IMG/VR virus record: IMGVR_UViG_3300035070_003531
Location: 1-21,097 of that record
Reading direction: 5' to 3' (one strand)
Length of the DNA: 21,097 nucleotides
Source: a virus
Shown here one piece after another: positions 1-14,959 of this stretch. Position numbers and translations under genes: made by a program. Every line of letters starts with the position of its first letter. Position 1 is the stretch's first letter. The notes under the pieces were generated by a model. The model searched no databases. It saw only the letters and a program-made list of their open reading frames with translations, and was not told where the DNA came from.

Positions 1-51
1 AACCACTAATGCTAATTCAATACCGAACTCTGGATTTGCTTTTACTATCAT
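1..51 (-). CDS. Partial CDS, 5' end only, unknown product
   Basis: An ATG at 51-49 opens a frame that reads 17 codons (MIVKANPEFGIELALVV) to the left edge without a stop. The ATG overlaps the TGA of the PIG-L gene (50-48) as ATGA, the same junction used at many other gene pairs here, which supports a real gene. The upstream bases give only a weak ribosome-binding site, consistent with translational coupling. Too little is present to name a function. Its position suggests it continues the sugar island. Confidence 0.6.
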   Translation of the reverse strand, partial: MIVKANPEFGIELALVV

Positions 52-698
52 AAACTAACTTGTTTTATTACTTGGAAACCCTCAGCGTATTTACAATTTG
101 CTTGTATTCCTCTGAACTTTGCTAATGTGGTTAAATTTTCCGTTACATCAAACCCAGCTTCTTCGTATTTTTTGAACTGACTTTGATGACATTCAGCTGC
201 TTTTATCTTATCGTCAAATGATTCTGTGATATCTACATAAGTGTTTATTCTCATAGGATTATCTGTGTGTCTTGGAATGGGTATTTGCTCATAACAATAT
301 ACATTTGGAACATATCTTGCAGCAGCCATTGTGGTTTTAAATGTAGAGATGTGGTCTTGATTGCTATCACCGGACCAATGTGTATAAATTGTATCTATTT
401 GATATTGCTTTATTATTGTTTCTAATTGAGATACACTTTCAAAACTAAATGGAACGTGTAAATCTTTAAATGGTAAATAAAATATTCTATCCACCCCAAG
501 AACATCAGCTGCACATTGTGTTTCTGATTTCAATTGTGATTCTGTCCTGATAACTTTACCTTGTGTAGCATCAACTGATTCTGTATCAGTCATACATACA
601 TAAGTTACATCATTACCCATATCTTTGTGTTTAATTAAAGTTCCACCACAACCAAATTCTATGTCATCTGGGTGTGCCCCAATTGCCATTATGTTCAT
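48..698 (-). CDS. PIG-L / LmbE family deacetylase
   Basis: Predicted zinc-dependent N-deacetylase of the PIG-L/LmbE family, which removes acetyl groups from GlcNAc-type sugars and related metabolites. The 216-residue protein has the signature AHPDD at residues 8-12 followed by a Gly-rich FGCGG stretch. A second metal-site region lies near residues 107-116 (TH, then QDH). Length is normal for the family and no signal peptide is seen, so it should act in the cytoplasm. The ATG overlaps the stop of the WbqC gene as ATGA and has an AGGAG-type ribosome-binding site seven bases upstream. Next to aminotransferase and dehydratase genes it probably unmasks an amino group on a nucleotide sugar or glycan. 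The substrate cannot be read from sequence. Confidence 0.87.
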   Translation of the reverse strand: MNIMAIGAHPDDIEFGCGGTLIKHKDMGNDVTYVCMTDTESVDATQGKVIRTESQLKSETQCAADVLGVDRIFYLPFKDLHVPFSFESVSQLETIIKQYQIDTIYTHWSGDSNQDHISTFKTTMAAARYVPNVYCYEQIPIPRHTDNPMRINTYVDITESFDDKIKAAECHQSQFKKYEEAGFDVTENLTTLAKFRGIQANCKYAEGFQVIKQVSL

Positions 699-1381
699 AT
701 AACCTCTCCTGATTTTTCTCCGTGATTAAATAATAAATCCACTACTGATAAATATGGAATAAAATCTCCAAACAACTGATTATATTTTTTACACTCATAG
801 CTTTGCCATTGTAGATTAATACCCAATCTATTGAAGTCTTCCTCTTTGATATATCTTTTTGAACCTGGACCTGAACCTGTCAAATATTCTGTGGCATTTG
901 TATTATCCAATATACTGAATATCTTATCACTACCTGTTTCATATGATTCAGATAGTTCAGAACCATAAGCGATTGTTGTTCTAATATCTAATTGTACCAT
1001 AAAATATCTAATCAAATCAGTTGATAGTTCAGTTAGTGATTTATGTTCACTCATAATAATATTTTCTATGTCTTGATAGTAATCATTGAAGTATGGTGCT
1101 TTTTGGTAATTACTTTTAATTAGATTACAATGGTCCGTTTGCCAAGTTGTTTCGTAATTAATTATAGTTTCGTTAAACACAACCATATCTGATTTATTCT
1201 TGATTGGAACTGATAACCACTTTGCTCCATTTGGTGTTTTGATTTGATTCCTATGACCAAAATGCTTTTTACCTCTTGGAAATTGGACATCATCAAAAAT
1301 AACAAATAAATCACTTCGTTTTATTTTATCAAAGAAGCCCAACCAAGGCAAATAATTTGGTTGATGAATCGATACTATCAT
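695..1381 (-). CDS. WbqC-like family protein
   Basis: The N-terminus (MIVSIHQPNYLPWLGFFDKI) is the hallmark of the WbqC family, and the 228-residue length fits. Family members sit in O-antigen and capsule loci and are thought to act in amino-sugar or glycan assembly, perhaps as acyl or aminoacyl transferases; the exact reaction is unsettled. Conserved-looking features are the HQPNYLPW motif at residues 6-13, a FDDVQF segment near residue 29 and an RN-K-P basic patch around residues 44-50. The ATG overlaps the TGA of the DegT aminotransferase gene, and only a weak AGAAGA site precedes it, so it is probably translationally coupled. The neighbouring aminotransferase could supply the amine that WbqC modifies (inference). 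Confidence 0.85.
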   Translation of the reverse strand: MIVSIHQPNYLPWLGFFDKIKRSDLFVIFDDVQFPRGKKHFGHRNQIKTPNGAKWLSVPIKNKSDMVVFNETIINYETTWQTDHCNLIKSNYQKAPYFNDYYQDIENIIMSEHKSLTELSTDLIRYFMVQLDIRTTIAYGSELSESYETGSDKIFSILDNTNATEYLTGSGPGSKRYIKEEDFNRLGINLQWQSYECKKYNQLFGDFIPYLSVVDLLFNHGEKSGEVI

Positions 1382-2529
1382 AGTTCTTCTATTGTTCTAC
1401 AAATATAATGAACTTGTTCATCAGTCATTTCTACATACATTGGTAGTGAGAATATCTTTGTGATAAACTCCTCTGAGTTTTTGTATCCATTAGGACTTAG
1501 ATAGTCTTTATAGATTTCTTGTTCGTGACATAGTGGTGAGTAAGCGTTTGCTGTTGGTATTTTGAACTCATCTAATAATCTTAGTAGAGTTTCTGTTCTA
1601 TCTCTTCCATCTGTAATCTTGACAATGTATTGCCAATAGGTTTGTTTGATGTTATCATCTTTGAATGGTGTTTGTAACCAATCAACCTTTGATAGTCTTT
1701 CATTATAGATATCTGCTATCTCGTTTCTTCTCTCGATAAAACTTCTTAGGTATTTGTTTTGTGCTAATCCAAGAACTGCGTGAAACTCTGACATACGATA
1801 ATTAGTTGATGGCATTGCACAAGTGTATCCATAATCTAATCCTTGATACTCTCCGTTATTTCTTGTGGTTCCGTGATTTCTCACCACTCTACATTTCTCT
1901 GCTAAAGCGTGGTCATTAGTCGTGATTAATCCACCCTCTGCTGTTGTGATTATTTTACTTGGATAAAAACTAAATACACCAGCGTCTCCAAATGACCCAG
2001 CGTATCTTCCGTCAGATTCACCTTTATTATAGAACTTTGCACCATAACTATGAGCGTCATCTGTTAGTAGAAATAAATTATTGTCTTTACAATACTTTTC
2101 AATCTCTTCCATTTCTGGTGTAATCAGACCTGACATATGAACCAATACAACTCCACCCATATCATCTGTCATATTTTCTTTGATGATATCTAATGATAAA
2201 CATTGTGTTTCTGAATCAACATCTACGATTAGTGGTGTGTTGCCTGTTCTAATAATACAATTGACACTTGCAGCAAATGTCTGTGTTGGAACCATAAATC
2301 TCTTGTTCTTGATTCCACTTGCTATCAACACGGTTTCTAAACCTGTTCCACAAGATGTGGTAGCTATCGCATCTCCTACATCAAACATACGACAAGCTTC
2401 TTTCTCAAACTCTTCAACGTGTTGTCCTTGAATTAATGCTCCTGTTTGAAGTATTGTTTCAAATTTATTTAATATCCATTTGTGTGTAACTGATGGAATA
2501 TAAGGTTTTGCCCTATATATTGTATCCAT
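1378..2529 (-). CDS. DegT/DnrJ/EryC1/StrS aminotransferase
   Basis: Pyridoxal-phosphate sugar aminotransferase that converts a keto-nucleotide sugar to an amino sugar, usually with glutamate as donor. The 383-residue protein has the family landmarks: an SCGTGLE segment near residues 59-65, the cofactor-contacting DDAHSYGA around 157-164, and FYPSKIITTAEGG with the Schiff-base lysine at about 192. The longest frame starts at 2547, but AAGGAG (2544-2539) lies inside that extension, nine bases before the ATG at 2529. The shorter start is therefore preferred, and the protein then begins MDTIYRAKPYIP, which fits the family. It overlaps the upstream SDR gene by 17 bp. It probably acts on the product of the PseB/CapD-like dehydratase two genes upstream. 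Confidence 0.9.
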   Translation of the reverse strand: MDTIYRAKPYIPSVTHKWILNKFETILQTGALIQGQHVEEFEKEACRMFDVGDAIATTSCGTGLETVLIASGIKNKRFMVPTQTFAASVNCIIRTGNTPLIVDVDSETQCLSLDIIKENMTDDMGGVVLVHMSGLITPEMEEIEKYCKDNNLFLLTDDAHSYGAKFYNKGESDGRYAGSFGDAGVFSFYPSKIITTAEGGLITTNDHALAEKCRVVRNHGTTRNNGEYQGLDYGYTCAMPSTNYRMSEFHAVLGLAQNKYLRSFIERRNEIADIYNERLSKVDWLQTPFKDDNIKQTYWQYIVKITDGRDRTETLLRLLDEFKIPTANAYSPLCHEQEIYKDYLSPNGYKNSEEFITKIFSLPMYVEMTDEQVHYICRTIEEL

Positions 2530-3379
2530 ATTTTTTTGCTCCTTCATTGTAATACCACTTTGCGTAGTCTTTTAATCCTTCATCTAACTTGGTGTAATCC
2601 CAATTAGTTTCAAATGTGAAATCGTGTTCTGGTAAGACTGCTTTTTCATCATCTTGAACCAACATTACTTCACCCTCTCGTGAGTATTCATTTACTTTAT
2701 AAATTAGGTCAATGATTTCAATATTATCTCCGACAACCTCAATCATCTCATAGGTCCTTGCTCCTGTGGTAACTAATCTGATTAACTGATTAACTACATC
2801 TTGAACAAATACAATATTAACTTTATTTTGTCCATTACCAGCGACCTCAATATGTTCTCTATTGATAATCTTATTCATATAATGACCCAATCTTGGTCTA
2901 TGATTACCTTCACCCACGATATAACTCGGTCTAACTATTTTGTAGTTAAGTTTTGAATCTTGTAGTCTTCTTTCAACTTGTTTCTTATCGTGTCCATAAT
3001 CTCCGTAATTTTGTGAGTATTTTTGATTAGCGGCTCCACTACTGACAAAGATATAGTTGGTGTGTTCATTTATTCTATCCTCAATCAAATCAAACTGACT
3101 CTCAAAGAACAAACACATATCAACAATACAACCATAGGAATCAAAATTTATCTTATCAATATCCTCTGGATTATTTCTATCTCCTTGTATTATATTTGCT
3201 TCACAAGTTTCCATAACATAGTCTGGACCCGTTCCACTGCGATTAAACATATCAACATTATATCCTTGGTCTAATAACTTTTCTATTAAAGCTTTACCTA
3301 CGAATCTATTACCACCAAAAACTAAAACTTTTTGTCTTTGTTCAAGTTCTTGTAGTCCCATTACTTCTTCTAAATCCAT
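2513..3379 (-). CDS. NAD-dependent epimerase/dehydratase, atypical SDR
   Basis: A 288-residue Rossmann protein of the extended or atypical SDR class. The nucleotide-binding loop is FGGNRFVG (residues 21-28), a GGxxFxG variant typical of atypical SDRs. A YxxxK catalytic pair is present at Y128 and K132 (YGHDK), preceded by an FVSSGA strand carrying the likely catalytic serine. It probably epimerises, reduces or dehydrates a nucleotide-linked sugar between dehydratase and aminotransferase. Start and upstream stop overlap as TAATG, with AAGGAG eight bases before the ATG, so the start is well supported. An internal Met7 is an alternative start. The precise substrate is not deducible. Confidence 0.82.
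   Translation of the reverse strand: MDLEEVMGLQELEQRQKVLVFGGNRFVGKALIEKLLDQGYNVDMFNRSGTGPDYVMETCEANIIQGDRNNPEDIDKINFDSYGCIVDMCLFFESQFDLIEDRINEHTNYIFVSSGAANQKYSQNYGDYGHDKKQVERRLQDSKLNYKIVRPSYIVGEGNHRPRLGHYMNKIINREHIEVAGNGQNKVNIVFVQDVVNQLIRLVTTGARTYEMIEVVGDNIEIIDLIYKVNEYSREGEVMLVQDDEKAVLPEHDFTFETNWDYTKLDEGLKDYAKWYYNEGAKKYGYNI
2539..2544 (-). promoter_or_regulatory. Ribosome-binding site AAGGAG that decides the DegT start
   Basis: AAGGAG on the coding strand lies nine bases before the ATG at 2529 and inside the longer reading frame that opens at 2547, favouring the shorter protein. Confidence 0.75.
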
Positions 3380-4245
3380 TAGATTAACTCCTTGATTTCA
3401 TCCTTAGTGAATTGTTCTGCTTCATTAGAATATAGTCCGTCTTCTGATATCTTCTCGTGTAGATTCTCTCCGACTTGTAGTCCAATAGTTTTTACTTTTA
3501 GTTCTTGTCCCTCTGGTAGATACTTTTCTGCCATAGCGTCAAGTAAATCTCCCATACTCATTGACTTCATACTTGGAAAGTGGAAATGACTTGTTGTAGC
3601 ATTTTCCATACAATCAAATATTAAATCAACCGCTTGGTCAAGTGTCCAGAAATATCTTGTTGCTTCTGGGTCTGTTACGATAATCTCTTCACCATTTTGT
3701 AGTTTCTCTTTCCAAATACACAACACCGAACCAGTTGAATACAACACATTACCATAACGAACTATTCTGAATTTGGTCTGTGGATAATCTTGTTCAAATT
3801 GCGTAAACATTCTTTCCATAAGATACTTACTTGCACCATATGTTCCAGTAACTTGTGCTGCTTTATCTGTTGAAATTCCAATCACGAACTCTACATCATT
3901 TTTTACTGCTTCTTCCAATACATTCATACTACCAATCACATTAGACTTGATACACTCTCTACCTTGGGTTTCTGCTAAACCAACGTGTTTGAATGCTGCT
4001 AAATGAAATACTCCCGTTATACCTTGCATTAATCTTGGTATTGTGAAGTCATCACAAATATCACCTGTGTGTATTTCTAATTTACTATTTTTGTATTTAG
4101 ATTTTAATTCTATCAGTTTTCCCTCGTTCCTTGACACGGTAACTACTTCACCACCTTGTTCAAGTATTCTATCAATTAATTCTCCACCTAAAAAACCAGC
4201 TCCACCGGTTATTAAGTATTTTTTTCCTTCTTGTATTTTAATCAT
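3379..4245 (-). CDS. PseB/CapD-like nucleotide-sugar 4,6-dehydratase
   Basis: Short-chain dehydrogenase of the polysaccharide-biosynthesis CapD/FlaA1/PseB type. These enzymes turn UDP-GlcNAc into a 4-keto-6-deoxy sugar, some with C5 inversion. Evidence: NAD loop GGAGFLG at residues 14-20; AAFKHV at 83-88; the family-diagnostic STDKAA at 125-130; and YGASK with Y136 and K140. At 288 residues it is shorter than typical PseB (about 330), with the trimming toward the C-terminus. It overlaps the upstream fusion gene by 8 bp and has AAGGAG seven bases before the ATG. It likely supplies the keto-sugar for the DegT aminotransferase, as in pseudaminic- or bacillosamine-type routes. The final sugar is not determined. 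Confidence 0.85.
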   Translation of the reverse strand: MIKIQEGKKYLITGGAGFLGGELIDRILEQGGEVVTVSRNEGKLIELKSKYKNSKLEIHTGDICDDFTIPRLMQGITGVFHLAAFKHVGLAETQGRECIKSNVIGSMNVLEEAVKNDVEFVIGISTDKAAQVTGTYGASKYLMERMFTQFEQDYPQTKFRIVRYGNVLYSTGSVLCIWKEKLQNGEEIIVTDPEATRYFWTLDQAVDLIFDCMENATTSHFHFPSMKSMSMGDLLDAMAEKYLPEGQELKVKTIGLQVGENLHEKISEDGLYSNEAEQFTKDEIKELI

Positions 4246-5968
4246 TACTGATTCTCCTTATTAGTTCGTTTGCTGCGTCTACACAAGTATCTATTTTACC
4301 ACTAAACAAACTCCAAACATTATCTCCCTCGTGATTAACCAAGGTAGGTCTAGCGTCGTCGTGGTCTCTATTTGAAAGGACTACTCTAAATGTATACATA
4401 GAGCCAATGTGTTCTAAGTCTGCGAATTCATCTCCAAAATACTTTACTCCACTTTCGATAAACTTATCTATCTTGGTGAGTTCTGGTTTGGGATTTTTTA
4501 TTAATCCCTTGTTCAAGTATTCAGTATATTCACTATCCCAAAATGGTTCAGTTCCCTCGTTCCAACTATGGATTGCGTGTTTCACATTACCTAAAACGTG
4601 ATACTCATTTCCATATGGGTCTAAACACATAAAAGGGCCGTCCATAACTACGACACTAATGTCCTCAAAAATCTTTGGTAGTTTCACAACTGGCTTTTCA
4701 CACAACTCATATTGATATCTTTTCTTATTCTCTAATAACTGATTGATATTTGAGTATGTTGCTATCACTACCACATCATAATCTTTTTTACATTGTTCTA
4801 AATCTGTAACTTCTGTATTTGCATATACTTTTACATTAGAACCCCAAACTTTCTTCTCTAAATTCTGTCTAAGTTTATTTGGATTAAATAATTCTTCTTC
4901 TGCTACAATCGTTAAATCACAATTTGGCATAGGTTCTCTTTCTTGATATGGTAAATTCATTTCATCTAAAAACTTCTTATAATCGTCTCCACTAACTAAA
5001 CTATCTTCTGAAGCTATTGAATACATATGTGTTATTCCACCATTAACCACACAATCACCATATTTTCTTTTAAATGTTTTTAATCCGTCTAAACACTCTT
5101 GAGCTGTTTCTTTACTTCGTGGATAATGATATCCTTTGTGTAATCTATATTGATTGATTGATGAAGCACCATTTAATATATTATCTGACTTTTCTTTTAC
5201 ATCAACTTGAAACCCGTAATTTGTTAGTGCCAAAGCACCCGACAATCCAAATGCTCCTGCTCCTACAACTAATGCTTTTGGACACACTACCTCTTTTACC
5301 TTCTCAGATAATCTAATGGCATTTAATGACATTTTTCTATTTAATTCATAGTCTCCTGCATTTGAGAATAAGAATTCGAACATAGTTTTTAGTGGGTCAC
5401 CACCATAATTTACTAAATCTGTTTCATTGACAAAATGTAGTGGTTCACTTGAAAAACCATACTTGAACATAGCTGCTCTTCCGTCTTCCAATTCCACCTT
5501 GAAGTCATCACAATCTCCCTCGATAGATTTAATGTCAAAGTCTGTATCTCCAACCCACATTATAAAATGATGATATGCTAATCTATCAATAAAGTTAATA
5601 TCTTTTTGTTCTGGTTTAGTCCAAACGAAATAGTTCATATCATCATAAATAGGATAGTCATCTCTCCAACTAAACACATCATCTACATATAACTTACAAT
5701 TCATAGCGTCTGCAAATTCAAATAACTGAATAGCACTTTCATAACTTAATGTTAATGGTTTTTCACAAAATACATTTTTACCTGCTGCTAACCAAGTCAT
5801 CACTTGTTCATAGTGTAAATCATTTGGTGTTGATATAATGACCCAATCTGCCTGTTCTGGTTCTACAAAATTTATATTAAAAAAGTCATCAGATAACGAT
5901 AAGTCTTTAATAGTCTTATCAATTATTTTTCCCCACTTACCTTTTCCTATTAATCCTACTTTGACCAT
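4238..5968 (-). CDS. Two-domain fusion: Gfo/Idh/MocA oxidoreductase + FAD-dependent (DAO-like) oxidoreductase
   Basis: A 576-residue protein with two dehydrogenase folds. Residues 1 to about 225 match Gfo/Idh/MocA enzymes: GLIGKGKWG dinucleotide-binding loop at 5-13, an IISTPNDLHYE strand, and the diagnostic EKPL at 69-72. Residue 232 onward begins a second Rossmann fold, LVVGAGAFGLSGALAL, typical of FAD-dependent amino-acid-oxidase-like enzymes, followed by a conserved-looking INQYRLHKGYHYPRS block. No stop or frameshift separates the halves, so the fusion is directly seen. The first half normally oxidises or reduces a sugar hydroxyl with NAD(P). The second may oxidise an amine or hydroxyl. 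It overlaps its upstream neighbour by 13 bp and has a weak GAG ribosome-binding site. Combined substrate unknown. Confidence 0.83.
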   Translation of the reverse strand: MVKVGLIGKGKWGKIIDKTIKDLSLSDDFFNINFVEPEQADWVIISTPNDLHYEQVMTWLAAGKNVFCEKPLTLSYESAIQLFEFADAMNCKLYVDDVFSWRDDYPIYDDMNYFVWTKPEQKDINFIDRLAYHHFIMWVGDTDFDIKSIEGDCDDFKVELEDGRAAMFKYGFSSEPLHFVNETDLVNYGGDPLKTMFEFLFSNAGDYELNRKMSLNAIRLSEKVKEVVCPKALVVGAGAFGLSGALALTNYGFQVDVKEKSDNILNGASSINQYRLHKGYHYPRSKETAQECLDGLKTFKRKYGDCVVNGGITHMYSIASEDSLVSGDDYKKFLDEMNLPYQEREPMPNCDLTIVAEEELFNPNKLRQNLEKKVWGSNVKVYANTEVTDLEQCKKDYDVVVIATYSNINQLLENKKRYQYELCEKPVVKLPKIFEDISVVVMDGPFMCLDPYGNEYHVLGNVKHAIHSWNEGTEPFWDSEYTEYLNKGLIKNPKPELTKIDKFIESGVKYFGDEFADLEHIGSMYTFRVVLSNRDHDDARPTLVNHEGDNVWSLFSGKIDTCVDAANELIRRISND

Positions 5969-6699
5969 AAATACTCAAATGTTTTTTTCATCCAAAATGG
6001 AACTGATTTATCTTTGTCTGGTAATCCGTTGAAATGCATTACCCAACCTAATTTAGTGTGTAACATATCACCTGCCAATATTTCTTTCTTTGGCATACAA
6101 CTCATATTATATCTATATGGTAATAATTTAACATCAATATCTTGTAATGTCAAGTTATAATTTAATGGTGTTTGGTCTGTTCCAATACCATAACTTTGCT
6201 GAATCATATTAATATTTTCTATGTTCTCAAAATAAAAATCTCTCATATGTTGGAAGAAATCCCTGTGATTATTATTCACAATTTGAAATCCACTATTTCC
6301 ATACTTCCAATAGTCAAACCATTTTCCGTCATAAACATATTTTGAGTAGTGTTCCATACCACGAAGTATCCAATCATAACTTCCGTCGTCGTGAACTAAA
6401 CAATACTTGTGTTCTGTTTTTTCAAAAAAGTTTGGTGTGTCTGGGTGAACTATCGTGTCAGCGTCAACCATTAGTGTTTGGTCTGATTCAATACCATTAG
6501 CATCATAAATGTCAAACAAAAAGTATCTTTGCCAAATGATATGCATTTCTTCCATTGGTAATACTGGTTCCTCTAACAAAAACAATTCTACGTCATTTTT
6601 CTTACACCACCTTCTCCAACTTTCAATACCTATTTCATATTCTGGTTTGAGTTGTCCGTCTTTCTTGACTGCGATAATAAATACAATGTTCTTACTCAT
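5956..6699 (-). CDS. GT-A fold glycosyltransferase, paralogue 1
   Basis: Predicted 247-residue nucleotide-diphospho-sugar transferase of the GT-A type. The metal/nucleotide DxD motif is VDADTIVHPD, with D79 and D81. Other landmarks are an ESWRRWCKKNDVELF strand-helix near residue 25, a GNSGFQIV segment in the acceptor region and a C-terminal MHFNGLPDKD motif. It is clearly related to the next gene upstream (6692-7444): both have W..WCKK, D.DT.VH.D.PN.FE, a MxKKE motif and a terminal HF.G.P. No membrane segment is seen. It overlaps that paralogue by 8 bp, with AGGT before the ATG. Sugar and acceptor are unknown; it resembles small GT8-like enzymes of glycan loci. Confidence 0.78.
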   Translation of the reverse strand: MSKNIVFIIAVKKDGQLKPEYEIGIESWRRWCKKNDVELFLLEEPVLPMEEMHIIWQRYFLFDIYDANGIESDQTLMVDADTIVHPDTPNFFEKTEHKYCLVHDDGSYDWILRGMEHYSKYVYDGKWFDYWKYGNSGFQIVNNNHRDFFQHMRDFYFENIENINMIQQSYGIGTDQTPLNYNLTLQDIDVKLLPYRYNMSCMPKKEILAGDMLHTKLGWVMHFNGLPDKDKSVPFWMKKTFEYLWSK

Positions 6700-7444
6700 A
6701 GTATTTACCTACCAATCCCCAAGTTTCTCTCATTAAATTTGTTCTGTCTTCAATTGGAAACCCTGTGAAATGCCACACCCAACTATATTTAATAAAAAAT
6801 GGTGTTTTATCATTTCCGTCTTGCCAATTATGACTGAACATTTCTTTTTTGTGCATAGCAAACATATTCCATTGTGGTGATAATAAATTTATATCATAGT
6901 TATTCTCTTGTAATAAGAAGTTAAATAGTGTTTGTTCTCTACCACCACCTTTATTCCAAGCATCAAGTTTTTCTCTATTTTGAAAATAAAAATCTTTTAA
7001 CTTTTCATATACTGATAATGATTTATTGTCAAGATACACAACTCCTGCATTAATATACTTGTCTAAGTTTATTTTGAAGTTTGGAAAAAACTCTCCTCCA
7101 TAATTACTCACACTATCATTTAACCACCTCAAATTAGCATCGTCTTGAATACCATAAACTCCACTACCAATCTCCTCAAATATATTGGGAGCGTCCCAAT
7201 GAACCATAGTATCACTATCCACGATAGCTATCTTTTCGTAATCTTTACCCTTTTCATAAACATCAAGTTTGTTCCAGATTGGGAAAGAATATTCTTCATT
7301 GTGTTCTTCAACAACCATAAAGTCTATTCCTCTTTTCTTACACCAAGCTTCCCAACTCTTAATACCATATTGAGCATAATCTGAGTTTTTAAACTTTGAT
7401 GCGTCGTGATTGACTGCCACCATATACACTAAGTATTTACTCAC
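6692..7444 (-). CDS. GT-A fold glycosyltransferase, paralogue 2 (GTG start)
   Basis: A 250-residue paralogue of the preceding glycosyltransferase in this list. Its DxD is VDSDTMVHWD (D76, D78), with a YINAGVVYL acceptor-side segment and a C-terminal VWHFTGFP motif. The frame can open at TTG 7447 or GTG 7444. GTG is chosen because AGAGG (7455-7451) is six bases from it but only three from TTG. With GTG the product begins MSKYLVYMVAV, which aligns exactly with MSKNIVFIIAV of the paralogue. It overlaps the epimerase gene by 8 bp. The two copies have diverged considerably, so they may add different sugars or make successive linkages. Confidence 0.78.
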   Translation of the reverse strand: MSKYLVYMVAVNHDASKFKNSDYAQYGIKSWEAWCKKRGIDFMVVEEHNEEYSFPIWNKLDVYEKGKDYEKIAIVDSDTMVHWDAPNIFEEIGSGVYGIQDDANLRWLNDSVSNYGGEFFPNFKINLDKYINAGVVYLDNKSLSVYEKLKDFYFQNREKLDAWNKGGGREQTLFNFLLQENNYDINLLSPQWNMFAMHKKEMFSHNWQDGNDKTPFFIKYSWVWHFTGFPIEDRTNLMRETWGLVGKYYE

Positions 7445-8291
7445 CAATTACCTCTTTAATGTAATCCTCTATATTTCTTTTTGGTTTATATCCAATTAGT
7501 CTTTCAGCGATTTGAATATCACAAAGAGTTTCTTTCGCTTCACCTGGTCTCGCATCAATATATTCAGTTTTTGTGTTAAACATATCTGCTATTTGATTGA
7601 TTGAATAATTGTTTCCCCTACCCAACTCTATTTCATCATAACAAGTTTCACTTTCTGATGATAAGATTAATCCGTCCACAATATCATCTATGTGAGTAAA
7701 ATCTCTTCTTTGAAAACCATCTCCTGTGATTGTTAGTGGTTCTTGGTTTTGGTATTGTCTTTCAAAAATACCCACTACCGTACAATACTCACCCTCTGTT
7801 AATTGATGTGGTCCATAAACATTATAAAATCTACATATTGATACATCAACTCCAAAATGTTTTCCATACAACAAACACAAATCATCTGCTACGACTTTTG
7901 AAAAAGTGTATGGATTTTTAAATTTACCACTATGAACTGATGATGAACCTGCAAATATAACTCTCGGTTTATTTTCTAACTCTCTTACCCACTCCAAGAT
8001 ATTCATAGTTCCTAATATTCCCACTTCTAATGTATTGGCTGGACTTTTAAATGATGGTTGGATTCTTGCGATTGCTCCCAAATGATAAATGACATCTGGT
8101 TTTTCCATAAAATAACCAAAGTCTATTACATCTCTAATATCACACTCGTGGTAAGTACAACCCTCTTGATGATTTTCTTTTTTACCTGTTGAATAATTGT
8201 CAAGACTAACGACATTGTGTCCGTCTTTTAATAACCTTTTAATTAGATTTGTTCCTACAAATCCTGCTCCACCTGTAACCATTATGTTCAT
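7437..8291 (-). CDS. NAD-dependent nucleotide-sugar epimerase/dehydratase (GalE-like extended SDR)
   Basis: Extended short-chain dehydrogenase of 284 residues acting on a nucleotide-linked sugar. It shows GGAGFVG at residues 7-13, a LDNYSTGKKEN segment typical of GalE/WbpP-like epimerases, a GSSSVHSG catalytic serine region, YTFSK with Y128 and K132, and RFYNVYGP downstream. The RRDFTHIDDIVDGL region matches the substrate-binding part of UDP-hexose 4-epimerases and 4,6-dehydratases. The ATG has TAGGAG five bases upstream; the stop codon TAG of the GT2 gene forms part of that site, so translation is probably coupled. Slightly shorter than GalE (about 330). Epimerase is favoured over dehydratase, but not firmly. 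Confidence 0.86.
   Translation of the reverse strand: MNIMVTGGAGFVGTNLIKRLLKDGHNVVSLDNYSTGKKENHQEGCTYHECDIRDVIDFGYFMEKPDVIYHLGAIARIQPSFKSPANTLEVGILGTMNILEWVRELENKPRVIFAGSSSVHSGKFKNPYTFSKVVADDLCLLYGKHFGVDVSICRFYNVYGPHQLTEGEYCTVVGIFERQYQNQEPLTITGDGFQRRDFTHIDDIVDGLILSSESETCYDEIELGRGNNYSINQIADMFNTKTEYIDARPGEAKETLCDIQIAERLIGYKPKRNIEDYIKEVIGE
7451..7455 (-). promoter_or_regulatory. Ribosome-binding site AGAGG that favours a GTG start at 7444
   Basis: AGAGG on the coding strand is six bases from GTG 7444 and only three from TTG 7447. Alignment with the paralogue encoded at 5956-6699 supports the GTG. Confidence 0.65.
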
Positions 8292-8299
8292 TTTAACTC

Positions 8300-8965
8300 C
8301 TATAAAATCGAATCGTATAATTTATTTTGATATTCTTGTTTTTGAATTTCTTTTTCGTGTTTTAAAGTCAATTCTTCGTGTGGTGGTAAATGAGAGTATG
8401 TTTTTGCTCCGTCTATTACCTCGTGAACTGACTTGACCCATTTAATGTGGTCTGCATTTTTAAATATTCTTGCTTGATAATCTGGAAAGTTTATCCACCC
8501 TTCCTCTGTTATTCTCCACTTCCAAAGATTTAAATGAAAATCTGTAATACCATTGACAATATTAATTCTTGGAACCCATACCAAATCTGTATCGTTGATT
8601 TCTAATATTTGTGGTAATTGTTTTAACAATATTTCATTTGGTATTTCATCTGCGTCAATGTGAAATATATAATCACCTGAACAATGTTCTTTTGTATAGT
8701 TTTTTAGTTTAGAGAAATCTTTTCTAAACTCAAATGTTGTTACTTTTAATTGTCTTGGTTCAAAGAAAGTGTTATATTCATATTTTTCTAACACCTTTTC
8801 AAGAGCATAAAAATCATCTTGCATTATACTTTTATCACCGACTTTTGATATATCTCGAGTGATAACCACTTCATCTTCTTCTCTAATATGTTTGGATAAA
8901 TGATATAGTAGATTATCTAATTCTTTGTATTCATTATAAACTGTTATTCCATAACTAATCTTCAT
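8300..8965 (-). CDS. Glycosyltransferase family 2-like protein
   Basis: A 221-residue GT-A enzyme of GT2 type. It starts with the family signature ISYGITVYNEYKELDNLL and carries the metal-binding FHIDADEIP with D104, D106 and E107. The segment WVPRINIVNG and the later YQARIFK around the middle match GT2 proteins that extend host LPS or teichoic acids. It lacks C-terminal membrane helices, so it probably acts on a soluble or phage-protein acceptor. It overlaps the upstream unknown gene by 11 bp and has AAGGG ten bases before its ATG. The acceptor and donor are unknown. Confidence 0.82.
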   Translation of the reverse strand: MKISYGITVYNEYKELDNLLYHLSKHIREEDEVVITRDISKVGDKSIMQDDFYALEKVLEKYEYNTFFEPRQLKVTTFEFRKDFSKLKNYTKEHCSGDYIFHIDADEIPNEILLKQLPQILEINDTDLVWVPRINIVNGITDFHLNLWKWRITEEGWINFPDYQARIFKNADHIKWVKSVHEVIDGAKTYSHLPPHEELTLKHEKEIQKQEYQNKLYDSIL

Positions 8966-9446
8966 CTGGTAATGCCCTTTCTAATGCTTCTTTTTTGTCT
9001 TCTAATATTAATTTAACCACTCCCTTTAATGAACCACCTATCAAATCATTACTATCTTCAATTAAAAATACTCTTCTTTTTCTACACTCTCTTAAGAAAT
9101 ATGTTCTGAATATTGGTGTTTTGTCTAAATAACGTTGTAACGAACCATATATCCTTTTCATAGTTGCTTCCTCAGTATAGTCTGCACTTTTTTCAGAGTC
9201 TTCAAATATATCATTTATCTGTTCAAATAATTCCTTTACAACCATTGGATTTAGTGAACCCTTATCAGAATTTTCTATTTCTAATCCAATGAAAAATTCC
9301 ACGATACGACCAGTAGATTGTTTTCTATAACGATATCTTGGTGCCAAAACATAAGCAGTTCTATTTGAACTTACACCTTTCATATTTTTATATCTGAACT
9401 TAACTAATTGTCCAGATTGAATTATATTCCAATTGGTGTTCTTCAT
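8955..9446 (-). CDS. Conserved-looking hypothetical protein, basic
   Basis: No family was recognised. The 163-residue product has a basic N-terminal half rich in Arg, Lys and Tyr (for example YVLAPRYRYRKQSTGR near residue 33), then an acidic helical stretch (FEQINDIFEDSEKSADYTEE), a second basic patch (FLRECRKRRVFLIED) and an acidic C-terminus. It looks globular, with no signal peptide, membrane helix or Cys cluster. Its ATG overlaps the stop of the zinc-ribbon gene as ATGA and has almost no ribosome-binding site, so the two are probably translated together. The position between glycosyltransferases may be incidental. A nucleic-acid-binding role is possible from charge alone but unproven. Confidence 0.7.
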   Translation of the reverse strand: MKNTNWNIIQSGQLVKFRYKNMKGVSSNRTAYVLAPRYRYRKQSTGRIVEFFIGLEIENSDKGSLNPMVVKELFEQINDIFEDSEKSADYTEEATMKRIYGSLQRYLDKTPIFRTYFLRECRKRRVFLIEDSNDLIGGSLKGVVKLILEDKKEALERALPDED

Positions 9447-9895
9447 AAATCTTTAACGATACCCATTTTCTTACAAGCTTCAACAAATTCGTGTTGTCCA
9501 TATGTAGTTGCATTTTCTAAATCTAAAGTATGTTCGTGTCCCTCATACATTGGGTCCTTTTGTTCTTCTTCTGATAACTCACGAACCTCTGCTAATTTCC
9601 AGTTCCAATTATCTTTTTTACCCTCTGGATATATCATACCGAATTTACCCATATTCAATATAGTTGGAAACCAAAAGATTTCTCTTTCATAATCAAAGAA
9701 TTTTATTTCTTTCATAAGTTCTGATGATGATGCTTCCATTTTATTCAAAGCTTCACTATCTCTTGTATAAGTTGTATTACTCATAAATCCACAATTAAAA
9801 CAAATATAAGAACTAAAATTCTCTATATCTATTTTTTCTTCAAAACAATGTTTATCATTTAAACAATGTGGACAAGTTATTTTTATTTCTGCCAT
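9443..9895 (-). CDS. Hypothetical protein with N-terminal zinc ribbon
   Basis: A 150-residue protein opening with a likely zinc ribbon: CPHC at residues 8-11 and CFNC at 32-35, twenty residues apart. The rest is a Trp/Tyr- and acid-rich domain (MGKFGMIYPEGKKDNWNWKL in the middle) with no recognised family. Zinc ribbons of this spacing commonly bind nucleic acid or protein partners, so a regulatory or scaffold role is possible. AAGGGAT precedes the ATG at good spacing, and one base separates it from the upstream glycosyltransferase stop. It is coupled to the basic unknown gene that follows; a shared function is a guess. Confidence 0.74.
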   Translation of the reverse strand: MAEIKITCPHCLNDKHCFEEKIDIENFSSYICFNCGFMSNTTYTRDSEALNKMEASSSELMKEIKFFDYEREIFWFPTILNMGKFGMIYPEGKKDNWNWKLAEVRELSEEEQKDPMYEGHEHTLDLENATTYGQHEFVEACKKMGIVKDL

Positions 9896-9896
9896 T

Positions 9897-11216
9897 TTAT
9901 CCCTTTTTTAATGTTGGTAGTTTTAACTTTTTTGGTTCTTTTTTTAGAGTTGGTAATTTAAGTTCAACTTGCTTTGGTATATCACCCATTACACTTTCAA
10001 TTATGTCAATCAATTTAGTTTTCATAGATTCAAATGAAAAGTTCTCACGATTAACAATCATTTGCTTTTTACCACGAATTTTATATTTATTGTAGTTTTT
10101 GAAAACATCTGACATCAATGCACTTGCTATTGAATATTTTACTGTGGACCATTGTGAGTCTGGTGTAACATATTCCGTTGGAAATGCACTTGGTGATACC
10201 CTTGTCATAACGTGTGGAATTTCTATCGTGTATTCTCTATCCAAGAAGTCTGCTTGACCTGTTGAGATTGGTGCTATGATTGGTTTACCACTAAATGATG
10301 CTTCTAACAATGGTCTACCGAATCCCTCTCCGTGAGTAAATGTTAAATGTGCTTTCACTTTCGGGTGATTGTACATTTCGTTCATTTCTTCGTCGGTTAA
10401 ATCTCCGTGAATTAAATAAATGTTTGGAAGTTTCTTTGCTTTTACGGTATCTTTGATTTGTTGTATTTTCTTTTTCATTTCAACTCTATCCATAACTGAA
10501 AAACTTGCTCCACTTGTTTTCATAATCAACGCTGGTGGGTTTTTCATATCTTTAAAAGATAACAAGAAAGTTTTAATCATCATACCGATATCTTTTCTGT
10601 CTTCACCAAGATTACCTTGCAACCAATGACCTACAAACAAGAAACAAAAGTCTTCATTGATTTTAGAAAATTCACTTTTCATTCTGTCTGAAAACTGATT
10701 AGTTTCTTTATAAACATTGGCATCAGCTCCCTCAAATAATACTTCACTTGGTCTTTCTAATCTGACTTCTCCCACTTTTTGTTTTGTGTTTTTATCAAGT
10801 TTATCAAACTTAATGTTTTTGAAACCAGTTTTAGAAAATTCTGATGTGAATACAACCTTATCCATACGATTACAACCCTCTACCCACTCTGCTGGTGGAA
10901 CCGTGTGTTCTATACCTGCCGTCATACCGATATTTTTCTTTCCAAATTGTTTAAACTCATTTGGTATTACGATATGTAAATGTACTTCTGGTTGTTTTGG
11001 TAATTGTGGTTGTCTTAAAATTCTTTTTTCTATTTCTTTATGGTTCGGGTCATTTGAATCCAAAGCGTTTAGTGGTGTTGAACCCCAAGGAACTGATTGA
11101 ATAGCGATATCATATTTATCACTTTCAATAAGTGCTCTACAAATATCTCTTGCGTGGTTTCCGTATCCACTTCTCGTTGCAACTGGTGCAGTTACTAATA
11201 TTAATGGTCTTATCAT
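9897..11216 (-). CDS. GT4-like (GT-B fold) glycosyltransferase with duplicated LKLPTLKK tail
   Basis: A 439-residue GT-B glycosyltransferase. The N-terminal donor-fold loop is near RSGYGNHARD (residues 15-24). The C-terminal domain holds the GT4 nucleotide-sugar signature HGEGFGRPLLEASFSGKP, an E-x7-E with E297 and E305. Preceding segments (FLFVGHWLQGN, LIHGDLTDEEM) match the usual GT4 order. The tail is odd: residues 419-426 and 431-438 are exact copies of LKLPTLKK, giving a very basic end. The ATG overlaps the stop of the neighbouring glycosyltransferase as ATGA, with GAGG upstream. It should transfer a sugar from a nucleotide donor in the cytoplasm; the acceptor is unknown. Confidence 0.84.
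   Translation of the reverse strand: MIRPLILVTAPVATRSGYGNHARDICRALIESDKYDIAIQSVPWGSTPLNALDSNDPNHKEIEKRILRQPQLPKQPEVHLHIVIPNEFKQFGKKNIGMTAGIEHTVPPAEWVEGCNRMDKVVFTSEFSKTGFKNIKFDKLDKNTKQKVGEVRLERPSEVLFEGADANVYKETNQFSDRMKSEFSKINEDFCFLFVGHWLQGNLGEDRKDIGMMIKTFLLSFKDMKNPPALIMKTSGASFSVMDRVEMKKKIQQIKDTVKAKKLPNIYLIHGDLTDEEMNEMYNHPKVKAHLTFTHGEGFGRPLLEASFSGKPIIAPISTGQADFLDREYTIEIPHVMTRVSPSAFPTEYVTPDSQWSTVKYSIASALMSDVFKNYNKYKIRGKKQMIVNRENFSFESMKTKLIDIIESVMGDIPKQVELKLPTLKKEPKKLKLPTLKKG
9903..9962 (-). repeat. Coding direct repeat encoding two LKLPTLKK units
   Basis: Two 24-base copies at 9903-9926 and 9939-9962, offset by 36 bases, each encode LKLPTLKK in the tail of the 439-residue glycosyltransferase. 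The DNA copies differ at several wobble positions, so the peptide is kept while the nucleotides drift. A related NLPKLNK begins the upstream glycosyltransferase at 12634. Confidence 0.85.
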
Positions 11217-12634
11217 ACTTTGTATACCTCGTATCTTTCTTTTGGTTCAAACTTTTCAAGTGCCGTATTCATATGGTCTGTAAATAATTGACACATTGCT
11301 CTTGCACTCATCATTGCGTCATCACTACAAACAAACTCGTGTCCTTTAAATCCACACTCATCTCTTTCTTCTTTTGACATATCATACCACTCTCTAATTC
11401 TTTCCCCTGCTTCAATCCAATCACATCTATCATCAAAAATATATGGTGTTGGTGGTGAACCTTGTAATGAACGACTCTTAGGCCATACTGGTTTTACCCA
11501 CTCGCCGTAAGTTAAGTCTTCATTGTGTTCCCATTTTCTCCAATCGTGTAGTGAGTGAATTTCTGAATAATCTTGGTAAGTCAGTAATTTATCTTTCAAT
11601 CTAAATCCACATTGGTCTTGTAAACCACCCGTAACATTAACAATAATTGGGGTTCCACTCATTAAACTTTCACAAGTTCCTAATCCAAATCCCTCGTTGG
11701 ATGCCAAGTTAATTGTTACGTCTGCTATGTTGTATAAATAATTTAGATGTTTACTTTCTAATTTATTTGTTGAAAATATAATGTTCAAATCAGGACATAG
11801 TTCTTGAACTACTGCGGGTAAGTCTGTTCCGTTTTGGTCTACTGGTTGTGTATGTAGAACAAAAGCTACATGCTTTCTTTCCTCCTCTGGAAGACCATAT
11901 GCAAACTCTCTAAATGCCATAATCGTATCTGATGTTAGTTTTCTTCTAATGTTTCTATTGTTGTAGAACATACAAAACTTAATATCATCACCACCAAAAA
12001 GTTCTGACTTCATTTTGTTCATTTCTAATAATTCTTTTTTATTTTTTATTGGATAGAATAATTTTTCATTTATTCCGTGTGGTATGTAAGTTGAATCCCA
12101 ATCTGTTCTTGGTTTATTTTGACATACATTTTGCACTATATTGTGTGTTTGTTTTGAAATATTCATAATCAAATCACAACTTTCATAAAATGGTTCGTTC
12201 CACCTTGGATAAGGTAAGTCGTCCCAGATATTATAATAAAAAATTGGACAAACTTGTCTAATCTCGTGTTCCATTTGAAACAACCAAGTCCAGAATCTTG
12301 GGTCTGTATAAATCATAATAGCGTCTGGCTTTTCTTCTTTCATAATATATCTGAGCATTTTCTGGTCACCATAACCATTGACCGGATATATTTTTAAATT
12401 AGCATCCTCAACACCAGTTTCTTTTCTAACTAAGTCGTTCATATCTACAAGCTTTCCAGCGTCTGGGTGTTTGATAGCTCCACCTACTTGGACCCAATCA
12501 AAGTCTTTCAATGTTCCCATAACGAACTCTCTTGTCATAGTTCCAACTCCACTTGACATACGCAAGTCATCTGAGAATATTACTATTTTCTTCTTTTTAT
12601 TTTCTGTAACTTTATTTAATTTTGGTAAATTCAT
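11213..12634 (-). CDS. GT4-like (GT-B fold) glycosyltransferase
   Basis: A 473-residue GT-B enzyme, distinct from the next one downstream but of the same broad class. After a short basic leader (MNLPKLNKVTENKKKK) the Rossmann strand IVIFSDDLRMSSGVGTMTRE begins. The middle has YIPHGINEKLFYP, typical of the GT4 linker, and FCMFYNNRNIRRK opens the C-terminal domain. The donor site is ASNEGFGLGTCESLMSGTP with E314 and E322 (E-x7-E). An insertion rich in Trp (DWRKWEHNEDLTYGEWVKP) follows. AGAGG lies before the ATG; it is 9 bp from the ribbon-helix-helix gene. It likely adds a sugar to a phage or host acceptor, with the paired GT4 enzyme acting before or after. Confidence 0.83.
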   Translation of the reverse strand: MNLPKLNKVTENKKKKIVIFSDDLRMSSGVGTMTREFVMGTLKDFDWVQVGGAIKHPDAGKLVDMNDLVRKETGVEDANLKIYPVNGYGDQKMLRYIMKEEKPDAIMIYTDPRFWTWLFQMEHEIRQVCPIFYYNIWDDLPYPRWNEPFYESCDLIMNISKQTHNIVQNVCQNKPRTDWDSTYIPHGINEKLFYPIKNKKELLEMNKMKSELFGGDDIKFCMFYNNRNIRRKLTSDTIMAFREFAYGLPEEERKHVAFVLHTQPVDQNGTDLPAVVQELCPDLNIIFSTNKLESKHLNYLYNIADVTINLASNEGFGLGTCESLMSGTPIIVNVTGGLQDQCGFRLKDKLLTYQDYSEIHSLHDWRKWEHNEDLTYGEWVKPVWPKSRSLQGSPPTPYIFDDRCDWIEAGERIREWYDMSKEERDECGFKGHEFVCSDDAMMSARAMCQLFTDHMNTALEKFEPKERYEVYKV

Positions 12635-12643: not shown

Positions 12644-12847
12644 TTAATATTTTGAACCACTTTTTTCTAAATTATCATATTCCAAAACTTTCTTTTGGAA
12701 TTCCTCATCATATACAAATAAATCTAAACTACGATTAACCAGCTTTTGTAAAGAGAAATCATCACGAATGGATTTTTCTCTAAACTTACGATATAACTCG
12801 TCGATAACTTTTACTGATGTTAATTTTTCTTCTCTGTTTTTACTCAT
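12644..12847 (-). CDS. Small ribbon-helix-helix-like DNA-binding protein
   Basis: A 67-residue protein whose layout fits the Arc/MetJ ribbon-helix-helix fold: a strand near residues 9-14 (LTSVKV), a helix DELYRKFREKS, a turn, then a second helix SLQKLVNRSLDLFV. Such proteins dimerise and bind DNA with the strand. The charged C-terminus is short. The ATG has no convincing Shine-Dalgarno and follows the 48-bp gap that holds two copies of ACATATATA. It is the first gene of the sugar block, so it could regulate that block or itself. Function is inferred from the predicted fold; a structural role cannot be excluded. Confidence 0.68.
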   Translation of the reverse strand: MSKNREEKLTSVKVIDELYRKFREKSIRDDFSLQKLVNRSLDLFVYDEEFQKKVLEYDNLEKSGSKY

Positions 12848-12895
12848 AATCGTCTAATATATACATATATATTTCTTACATATATAAATAGTCTG
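12848..12895 (-). promoter_or_regulatory. AT-rich gap upstream of the sugar block, candidate promoter/operator
   Basis: This is one of two gaps longer than 10 bp. It is almost pure A/T and separates the YspA-like gene from the ribbon-helix-helix gene. On the plus strand it reads ATATAAATAGT at 12882-12892, a T4-late-promoter-like box, but that direction is antisense to all genes here. No minus-strand -35/-10 pair or hairpin stands out. Promoter assignment is an inference from location and composition. Confidence 0.4.
12863..12886. repeat. Direct repeat ACATATATA, two copies
   Basis: ACATATATA occurs at 12863-12871 and again at 12878-12886, offset 15 bp, just upstream of the ribbon-helix-helix gene. 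Half-site repeats in this position are common operators for that fold. The low complexity of the DNA means chance is possible. Confidence 0.45.
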
Positions 12896-13294
12896 TTAAT
12901 CTAAAATAACATACTTTTTATTTATTTTTTCACAATATTCTAATGCCGACCTTGTTCCGTTGGTAATCTCTCCGTCTTTACAAAATGCCACCACTTTATC
13001 AGAATACTTGACTAAATCTTTGTTTCGTTTGTGATAATAACCTACATTGTAGGGTTTTCCATAATTAAAAGCTTCCATTACACAATGCATATTATGTGGT
13101 AGATGTTGTGGTGGAAACTCACTATAAGGAACTTTGAACTCTAATGCAAATCTTTTTGCATATTTGTCTGCTCCGTCTTTGGCACCACCACTAACTATTT
13201 CCACATTAGGGTGTTCCATTTTTAATCGAAATATAAAATTCTGTATGTTTTTTTTATTAGTGTAGGTACGACTTCCGATAATCGCTATCTTCAT
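12896..13294 (-). CDS. YspA-like SLOG-family protein (DUF2493)
   Basis: A 132-residue Rossmannoid protein of the SLOG superfamily, cpYpsA/YspA branch. It starts MKIAIIGSRTYTN, with the GSR loop at residues 7-9, and has the nucleotide-binding SGGAKDGADKYA near 35-46, then the HKRNKDLVKYSD segment typical of the family. Members are thought to bind or hydrolyse nucleotide-like ligands such as NAD or ADP-ribose derivatives. In phages they are often near nucleotide-metabolism genes, as here with Nmad1. Start and upstream stop share TAATG, with no clear ribosome-binding site, suggesting coupling. Ligand unknown. It is the last gene of the replication block before the 48-bp gap. Confidence 0.83.
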   Translation of the reverse strand: MKIAIIGSRTYTNKKNIQNFIFRLKMEHPNVEIVSGGAKDGADKYAKRFALEFKVPYSEFPPQHLPHNMHCVMEAFNYGKPYNVGYYHKRNKDLVKYSDKVVAFCKDGEITNGTRSALEYCEKINKKYVILD

Positions 13295-13737
13295 TAGTCG
13301 TTTCGTTTTTGTTTTCTGGTTGGTTCTGGATTGAGTTCTTCTTTATTGATAAACTCGTATGTTTTTTTGAAGTGTTCTAATCCTTTTAGAATATCTCTTG
13401 GATTATCATATTCGTATGCAAATCTGTAATTTTGTAAATGCTTAGAGTTTTTTGGTCTAATATCAAAAGTAATAAAATGATTTTGGTCGTCGGTTAATTC
13501 TGGTATGATAATAATTTTTGTATTGAACTCTCCTGATGATTTCCAGTATTTGATAAATGGTTCAAGAGTTTTTAAATCAATCATTTCTGTTTCTCTATCA
13601 TACCAAAAATATAATGGAAAAGAAACACCATACAAATAGTCTAATTGCTTTAATTTCATTAATTCTTGAAATACTTCTTGTTCAAAATCTGTTGCTAAAA
13701 AATCTGTTACTTTAATTCTTAAGCTTGGTTCTGTCAT
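13294..13737 (-). CDS. Hypothetical protein
   Basis: A 147-residue product with no recognised family. It has alternating helix and strand character: an N-terminal helix around residues 17-29, an aromatic FPLYFWYDRE strand, IIIIPEL, HFITFDIRP, and a helical C-terminal half ending in a basic tail (EPTRKQKRND). No membrane segment or metal-binding cluster is seen. It lies between the Fe-S nuclease and the YspA-like gene, joined to both by TAATG overlaps, with AAGGA before its ATG. A role with replication or recombination genes is suggested by position only. It was compared mentally with T4 RegA because of the gp62 context, and does not resemble it. Confidence 0.72.
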   Translation of the reverse strand: MTEPSLRIKVTDFLATDFEQEVFQELMKLKQLDYLYGVSFPLYFWYDRETEMIDLKTLEPFIKYWKSSGEFNTKIIIIPELTDDQNHFITFDIRPKNSKHLQNYRFAYEYDNPRDILKGLEHFKKTYEFINKEELNPEPTRKQKRND

Positions 13738-14570: not shown

Positions 14571-14959
14571 TTACCCCTCGCTACTACTTGTGCCATTACT
14601 CCGTAATTTGATACATCTGAAAAACTATCAGTTATGGGTTCGTTTTCTACACCTGGTGTATTTGTTTCTCTCATCAATAATGTTTTTAATCTTTCTGTTT
14701 TGTCCTGCATTCGAAACCAAATTCCTAACAATGATAATTTAATATCTTCTTTGGTTTTTAGAATTGTTCCTACTGCTATATTTTGTGGACCATAATCATA
14801 TTGTTTTCTACAAAACAATTCATATTGGTCTCGTTGAATCTTTTTAAATTCTGATGTCATTTCAGGATATGTGTTTTCCATATATCCAACAACATCTGTT
14901 GGTTCTCTTTCAAAATCAAGAGCCGAATCTGGCAATCCCTTTGGTGTGTCTTTAATCAT
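14558..14959 (-). CDS. Nucleotide modification associated domain 1 (Nmad1) protein
   Basis: A 133-residue all-alpha protein of the Nmad1 type, related to MazG-like nucleotide pyrophosphohydrolases. Signature elements: RKQYDYGPQNIAVG near residues 51-64, a long helix LSLLGIWFRMQDKTERLKTLL, and NEPITDSFSDVSNYGVMAQ, whose acidic residues D111 and D115 and Y119 belong to the conserved E..D..D..NY set. The family occurs in phages that alter their nucleotides or DNA bases, and probably acts on a (deoxy)nucleotide triphosphate or its modified form. It overlaps the clamp-loader gene as TAATG, with GGAG before the ATG. Exact substrate unknown; no base-modifying enzyme is visible in this window. Confidence 0.8.
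   Translation of the reverse strand: MIKDTPKGLPDSALDFEREPTDVVGYMENTYPEMTSEFKKIQRDQYELFCRKQYDYGPQNIAVGTILKTKEDIKLSLLGIWFRMQDKTERLKTLLMRETNTPGVENEPITDSFSDVSNYGVMAQVVARGKWAK

Follow-up and report, generated by a model that had tools for sequence, protein, structure and literature searches.

What does a phage build with twelve contiguous enzymes of sugar synthesis and transfer, and to what is the product attached? The question is raised by IMG/VR virus record IMGVR_UViG_3300035070_003531, a fragment of 21,097 bases without terminal repeats that was analyzed in full (the window), and in which every gene lies on the minus strand. An earlier note, made from the letters alone, had described its first 12.6 kb as a self-contained island in a phage genome, providing a modified amino sugar for direct addition to a protein, DNA or an existing glycan. 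The enzymes it listed (a 4,6-dehydratase, two further short-chain dehydrogenases/reductases (SDRs), an aminotransferase, a deacetylase, a WbqC protein, an oxidoreductase fusion and five glycosyltransferases (GTs)) are all present, contiguous and on one strand at positions 48-12634, together with two further small open reading frames (8955-9446 and 9443-9895). Comparison with relatives indicates that the locus is not one island but two parts, a conserved block (8300-12634) and a variable cassette (1-8291). We read it as the locus of a glycan with a conserved stem and an exchangeable tip, whose acceptor would be a phage protein, most likely of the virion, and we regard this reading as having close to an even chance of being correct.

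Conserved and variable parts of the locus

In the direction of transcription, the conserved block comprises two core GT4-type glycosyltransferases, GT4a (11213-12634) and GT4b (9897-11216), a core zinc-ribbon-like protein with a CxxC...CxxC arrangement of cysteines (H150, 9443-9895), a conserved protein (H163, 8955-9446) and a core GT2-family glycosyltransferase (GT2, 8300-8965). The cassette then runs from an NAD-dependent epimerase/dehydratase at its edge (7437-8291) through two GT-A glycosyltransferases, GTa (6692-7447) and its paralogue GTb (5956-6699), a fused Gfo/Idh/MocA dehydrogenase and FAD (DAO) oxidoreductase (Gfo-DAO, 4238-5968), a PseB/CapE-like nucleotide-sugar 4,6-dehydratase of the PseB/CapD type (3379-4245), an SDR-type epimerase/reductase (SDR2, 2513-3379), a DegT/PseC-like sugar aminotransferase dependent on pyridoxal phosphate (1378-2547) and a WbqC family protein (695-1381) to a PIG-L family de-N-acetylase (48-698). 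Scans of IMG/VR gave 115 loci and then 13 more, and genes were counted in 40 non-redundant marine contigs, chosen because they extend as far as GT2, so that the presence of GT2 itself is by construction. At a threshold of at least 40% identity, GT4a and GT4b were found in 40/40 contigs each and H150 in 39/40; H163 is present in 29/32. The cassette genes were counted at a threshold of at least 60% identity in contigs long enough to contain them: the epimerase, which most relatives have, was found in 24 of 34, GTa in 5 of 34, GTb in 14 of 33 and Gfo-DAO in 11 of 27, and, with small denominators, the dehydratase in 5/16, SDR2 in 0/14 (1/14 at 40%), the aminotransferase in 1/6, the WbqC protein in 1/5 and the PIG-L protein in 3/4. 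Several contigs had been retrieved by cassette-gene queries, a bias towards cassette conservation and not against it. The earlier note had proposed asking whether the island varies between close relatives; the cassette does, and the GT core is kept.

The same arrangement is found in two cultured phages, Flavobacterium phage immuto and Microcystis phage Mel-JY01, whose hosts belong to the Bacteroidota and the Cyanobacteria. In both, an exonuclease gene, GT4a, GT4b, GT2 and sugar genes follow in the same order, and the cassette genes differ. GT4a shares 47% identity with its counterparts in immuto and Mel-JY01, GT4b of the clade shares 48% and 51%, respectively, and the core overall is approximately 37-50% identical; H150 of this module is also present in immuto. 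The two phages further share T4-like virion genes (terminase, portal, capsid and tail tube) at 45-55%, so the GT block seems to have been inherited with the virion genes, despite the family A DNA polymerase of immuto. On these comparisons the GT core is old. A literature search found no paper on the GT module of either phage. H150 always sits between GT4b and GT2, even in immuto, and may be a partner of the transferases. Independently of the GT module, immuto (L262, L153; positions 18607-37015 of its record) carries FolE, QueD, QueE, QueC, DpdA and QueF-like genes, a set for 7-deazaguanine DNA modification.

The cassette extends past the left end of the window. In contig 3300028925_010123 (L236, L246), Gfo-DAO, the dehydratase, SDR2, the aminotransferase, the WbqC protein and the PIG-L protein are followed by c78, c16 and a DUF2334 gene, and on this far side of the cassette conserved genes return: c16, the DUF2334 protein, c23 and c21, a 400-aa GT2-family protein that is also clear in immuto. 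The island is not self-contained as had been supposed, given that five of its 14 genes are kept core, that the window edge cuts the cassette and that a nucleotidyltransferase is absent. In a 67-kb contig (L237), the set from the dehydratase through SDR2, the aminotransferase, the WbqC and PIG-L proteins to c78 is kept together at approximately 50-70% identity at a different position, so that this sub-operon is a recurring unit. An AlphaFold model of c78 is weak (pLDDT, a confidence score, of 51) and gives a GT-B-like hint towards heptosyltransferases; c78 is probably a GT-B transferase by this model and by the flippase-like and GT11-like neighbors of its bacterial homologues.

Other relatives carry different genes in the cassette. 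An ATP-grasp ligase takes the place of SDR2, the aminotransferase and the WbqC protein, ahead of the PIG-L protein and c78, in G005/G006 and L240; elsewhere the cassette holds an MptE-like protein (its Pfam match below cut-off) along with a PseF-like CMP-transferase, or an HpcH/HpaI aldolase, or an asparagine-synthase-like protein, or SDRs of the GDP-mannose-dehydratase type, or a CMP-transferase together with NeuB. The MptE-like Pfam family is related to the flagellin transferase Maf. In L116, L122 and L138 an HpcH/HpaI aldolase, an LdpA-like Fe-S protein, a CMP-transferase and an MptE-like protein share one cassette, which resembles an unusual pathway for a keto-acid sugar, and the NeuB and CMP-transferase in the same slot of G007 (L133:3453-6158) constitute a nonulosonic acid route.

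As to where such genes come from, Gfo and DAO are separate neighboring genes in Pelagibacterales, in one case inside a sugar locus, where they accompany a PseB-like dehydratase and a CMP-transferase-like gene (Pelagibacteraceae). A Gfo-DAO fusion 45% identical to that of the window lies in a single marine cell of the Bacteroidota, similar to Marinoscillum, within a lipopolysaccharide (LPS)-type operon (L154:10001-10987), a hint that the host or the donor belongs to the Bacteroidota. These Pelagibacterales and Bacteroidota contexts suggest a bacterial surface-sugar ancestry for Gfo-DAO. A close bacterial source of the aminotransferase was sought in two bacterial classes (295 and 289 genomes), and none was found at a strict E of 1e-80.

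Selection on the cassette

Ratios of non-synonymous to synonymous substitution rates (dN/dS) were computed by the Nei-Gojobori method, pairwise against the nearest relative (L147) or L246. Against L147 the cassette genes gave dN/dS of 0.05-0.17, and against L246 the PIG-L, aminotransferase and WbqC genes gave 0.14-0.26, similar to the core. By gene, the values were 0.14-0.18 for PIG-L and 0.06-0.16 for the dehydratase, and GTa evolves fastest (0.15-0.54). By this measure the cassette is functional, with purifying selection on every gene. A recent exchange of the dehydratase (93% amino-acid identity) was considered and rejected, because its dS is similar to that of core genes; the high identity therefore reflects strong constraint and not recent transfer.

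Identity of the encoded enzymes

Proteins were annotated by Pfam, NCBIfam and PHROG profile searches, and structures by AlphaFold models, Foldseek and comparison with the Protein Data Bank (PDB). GT4a and GT4b are assigned to the GT4 type because both match the glycosyltransferase family PHROG 2170 (phrog_2170, E 7e-22 and 6e-17) and because the GT4a profile (alignment A5) finds chlorovirus B736L as its best PDB match (E 1e-13); their PF00534 scores are at or slightly below the Pfam cut-off. GT2 matches PF00535, and the H150 cysteines are invariant in alignment A3, the immuto homologue included. H163 gave no significant match in Pfam, NCBIfam and PHROG profile searches.

Neither GTa nor GTb has a Pfam match. 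They are 30% identical in alignment A2, in which the D-x-D motif is invariant in both, and the AlphaFold model of GTb (pLDDT 93) has a GT-A fold, with the GT domain of PBCV-1 A64R as top Foldseek match (E 2.7e-9, TM-score 0.60/0.70) and further matches to phage GT34-like proteins. Because of this fold and the D-x-D motif in both, five is the right count of glycosyltransferases.

Among the sugar-modifying enzymes, the epimerase (PF01370, E 5e-46) resembles GalE and UDP-glucuronate decarboxylase by PDB comparison, and SDR2 (PF01370, E 2.6e-13) has GGNRFVG and Y-x3-K motifs. Gfo-DAO combines PF01408 and PF01266, with G-x-G-x-x-G and EKP motifs invariant in alignment A1. The dehydratase (PF02719, E 3.8e-65) has TDK and YGASK (YxxxK) motifs that align with CapE and the UDP-GlcNAc C6 dehydratase 2gn4; its best NCBIfam model is PseB, at 190 of 408 bits and so under the cut-off, and that of the aminotransferase (PF01041, E 2e-89, matching sugar aminotransferases in the PDB) is PseC, likewise under the cut-off at 248 of 424 bits. 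The PIG-L protein (PF02585, E 1.7e-24) has an AHPDD motif and diacetylchitobiose deacetylase as best PDB match. The WbqC protein (PF08889, E 3.9e-68) probably has a role in sugar modification; it has no related structure in the PDB, and a literature search turned up no paper on its function.

Predicted sugar chemistry

The cassette product is probably a 4-amino-6-deoxy-hexosamine derivative, as judged from the enzymes encoded. With the dehydratase and the PseC-like aminotransferase, the expected intermediate is UDP-4-amino-4,6-dideoxy-N-acetylhexosamine, and, since a nucleotidyltransferase is absent from the window, the UDP-sugar precursor must be host-supplied. The comparison with pseudaminic, legionaminic and bacillosamine pathways that the earlier note had called for leaves each of them incomplete. 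The similarity to the pseudaminic acid and bacillosamine pathways is confined to PseB- and PseC-like first two steps; the window lacks PseH/G/I/F or PglD/PglC and has PIG-L and WbqC instead. Searches of the window found no NeuB/PseI synthase or CMP-transferase (Pfam, NCBIfam), NeuB occurring only in the different cassette of G007, and no PglD-type hexapeptide acetyltransferase or PglC/Bac_transf (Pfam). We therefore rejected a complete pathway of any of the three kinds.

The acceptor of the glycan

We infer the order of the enzymes, their substrate, the acceptor and the benefit as follows, the gene identities, the conserved and variable parts and the purifying selection being as described above. 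In the cytoplasm of the infected cell, GT2, GT4b and GT4a, in relatives together with the GT2-family protein on the far side of the cassette, would link a short glycan to a protein of the phage, most likely one of the virion, and lengthen it. The PseB-like dehydratase would convert host UDP-N-acetylhexosamine to a 4-keto-6-deoxy sugar, which the PseC-like enzyme would aminate at C4; the SDRs and Gfo-DAO may then epimerize or oxidize it, PIG-L would remove the N-acetyl group, and the GT-A pair would add this unusual sugar as the tip. Cassette exchange would alter the tip, presumably selected by host defenses, receptors or adsorption.

The case for a phage protein begins with GT2. Its profile (alignment A4) finds GmaR as best match over the full length (E 5.3e-14, positions 3-205), followed by chondroitin synthase and SunS (3e-9) over the first part only. 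GmaR is a flagellin O-GlcNAc transferase and SunS a peptide S-glycosyltransferase. A GmaR-like core GT2, in a core kept across hosts of different phyla, favors a phage protein as acceptor; and as the core is kept with T4-like virion genes in the Flavobacterium and Microcystis phages, the acceptor is likely to be something common to the phages and not to their hosts. The alternative cassettes with a CMP-sugar synthetase and the MptE-like protein (below cut-off), or with NeuB, were counted on the same side, as were the missing Wzx and initiating transferase and the lack of predicted membrane proteins (scopes below). A phage protein is thus slightly favored over a host surface glycan. A more specific version, in which a widespread clade of T4-like phages puts sugars on a virion protein of its own, by means of a conserved cytoplasmic GmaR/SunS-like initiating GT and two GT4 extenders, and swaps entire nucleotide-sugar operons at a single fixed locus so that the terminal sugar changes, we hold as a tentative possibility, somewhat short of even; it can be likened to chlorovirus capsid glycans and bacterial O-antigen switching.

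Several points weigh against a phage protein as acceptor. Both acceptor and glycan are deduced from sequence, and membership in the GT2 family does not by itself point to one acceptor; chondroitin synthase matches part of the protein too. The locus adjoins replication genes and not virion genes; peripheral GTs without transmembrane segments are equally normal in LPS and O-unit synthesis; the GT4a homologue of Mel-JY01 is split into two adjacent open reading frames (L152:17442-18933); and such phage genes are usually read as LPS modification (PMC7029224, PMC7824862, PMC3037559).

The strongest competitor, which we consider rather less likely than not, is that the same enzymes modify host LPS or its O-chain, adding a new sugar to a host-made lipid-linked glycan and so blocking competing phages, or keeping progeny from sticking to debris. 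It is how the cyanophage and pelagimyophage clusters are usually understood (PMC3037559, PMC7029224, PMC7824862), and the early-gene neighborhood suits a host-directed role. The occurrence of Gfo and DAO in a Pelagibacteraceae sugar locus and of the fusion in a marine Bacteroidota LPS-type operon also speaks for it, as does a Bacteroidia genome in which a c78 homologue is next to genes that we read from the sequence as flippase-like and GT11-like. However, hosts of different phyla should differ in their surface glycans, yet their phages keep the core GTs, and the core GT2 is nearest to protein and peptide transferases. Of the three acceptors that the earlier note had left side by side, protein and host glycan thus both stay in contention, with a modest lean to protein.

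DNA, the third, is improbable. Several GTs and 2-oxoglutarate (2OG) oxygenases close to a replication module would fit glycosylation of phage DNA, as T4 or RB69 perform it on 5-hydroxymethylcytosine, but no thymidylate-synthase/dCMP-hydroxymethylase gene (PF00303) was found in 36 related contigs (fragments) or in complete Mel-JY01, the single gene of this family in immuto is annotated ThyA, and the 2OG oxygenases belong to PF13640 (P4H-like), without a Tet/JBP match. Still less probable is the idea, raised for cyanophages (PMC3037559), that the sugar genes have no function and serve as filler for headful packaging: the variable and sporadic content would suit it, but the reading frames are intact with overlapping ends, and every cassette gene has a dN/dS far below 1. 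That the stretch is an O-antigen locus from the host chromosome, mis-binned as viral, would suit the resemblance of the enzymes to O-antigen genes, but it has a negligible chance and is refuted by phage flanks and synteny, the locus being contiguous with gp62 and the exonuclease, with gp43, gp44 and clamp genes in relatives and the same order in two isolated phages. The absence of a polymerase and flippase asserted in the earlier note is borne out for the flippase (Wzx, PF01943, none in 36 related contigs), and no transmembrane segment was predicted in any protein of the window; no search was made for Wzy. Of the refuting signs named in the earlier note, host chromosomal flanks and a flippase just outside the window were sought and neither appeared. 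The initiating sugar-phosphate transferase (PF02397) was found in none of 26 records of relatives.

Phage identity and neighboring genes

The assignment to a phage genome in the earlier note is upheld by T4-like flanks. In the direction of transcription, the genes run from a Hint-domain protein through three 2OG-Fe(II) oxygenases and a radical-SAM protein to gp62 (clamp-loader A, the clamp-loader small subunit), then through H133, a PD-(D/E)XK exonuclease, H147, an SLOG protein and H67 to GT4a. The backbone from gp62 to H67 (12644-15390) is syntenic in relatives, whose longer contigs carry on via gp44, the sliding clamp and a T4-type family B polymerase (phrog_262, E 3e-183) and also encode a UvsX-like recombinase, a DnaB-like helicase and ribonucleotide reductase. 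The DNA polymerase of the clade shows distant kinship to known phages. The window is a genome fragment of a large, uncultured marine T4-like phage. A near-identity DNA search against phage records gave nothing useful, a tRNA search of relatives found none and thus no tRNA clue to the host, and the T4 major capsid profile PF07068 had no match in the contigs, but its control search was empty too.

Within this backbone, the SLOG protein (12896-13294), a YspA/DprA-like nucleotide-binding protein, lies in a conserved block beside the exonuclease. A second variable region (15450-19294), between gp44 and gp62, holds the three P4H-like oxygenases and the radical-SAM protein, of B12-binding type; their number and identity (37-95%) differ sharply among relatives whose backbone is 85-95% identical. 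Next to the oxygenases, a 603-aa protein (19275-21086) combines two different Hint-type domains, PT-HINT (residues 361-457) and an intein-splicing type (470-570), and weakly matches a virion structural family, so that it may be a self-processing phage protein.

Relation to known systems and implications

Sugar clusters are already known in T4-like marine phages. The cyanophage 'LPS' clusters (P-SSM2, S-SSM7, S-SM2) resemble this locus in having SDRs and GTs along with other sugar enzymes, located in hotspots and sporadic among relatives (PMC3037559, PMC7824862), but they lie near hli03/phoH, whereas this locus lies beside gp62 and the exonuclease and has a conserved GT4a-GT4b-H150-GT2 block; among Synechococcus phages, GT4a has only weak matches, in S-CBS4 and S-EIVl. 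The host-recognition cluster of pelagimyophages is likewise a hypervariable island with GT8-type and deoxy-sugar genes (PMC7029224), located in the structural region with tail fibers and not in the replication region as here. Moraphages, aquatic jumbo phages with predicted Bacteroidota hosts, have four GT orthogroups in their core genome (PMC12619734) and are likened here by description. Chloroviruses and mimiviruses also encode cytoplasmic nucleotide-sugar and GT enzymes (PMC4691112), and the nearest solved structures of the GT-A proteins and GT4a are chloroviral, but these are eukaryotic viruses, at 11% sequence identity, and a capsid glycan is demonstrated there only. In the literature we did not find described a fixed, conserved GT block with an adjoining exchangeable sugar operon, common to phages of different host phyla. 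The locus is a more modular version of the sugar clusters seen in other marine phages.

In this group, purifying selection speaks against the filler-DNA idea. If the acceptor is host LPS, the locus would illustrate, in a clearly delimited case, how a phage changes the surface of its host. If the glycan is instead added to a protein of the virion, phages of a common marine group would alter their own coat sugars by exchanging cassettes, with consequences for how they meet receptors, defense and grazing, and the long-standing question of the purpose of phage 'LPS genes' would become testable in two cultured phages, immuto and Mel-JY01, which have the conserved transferases.

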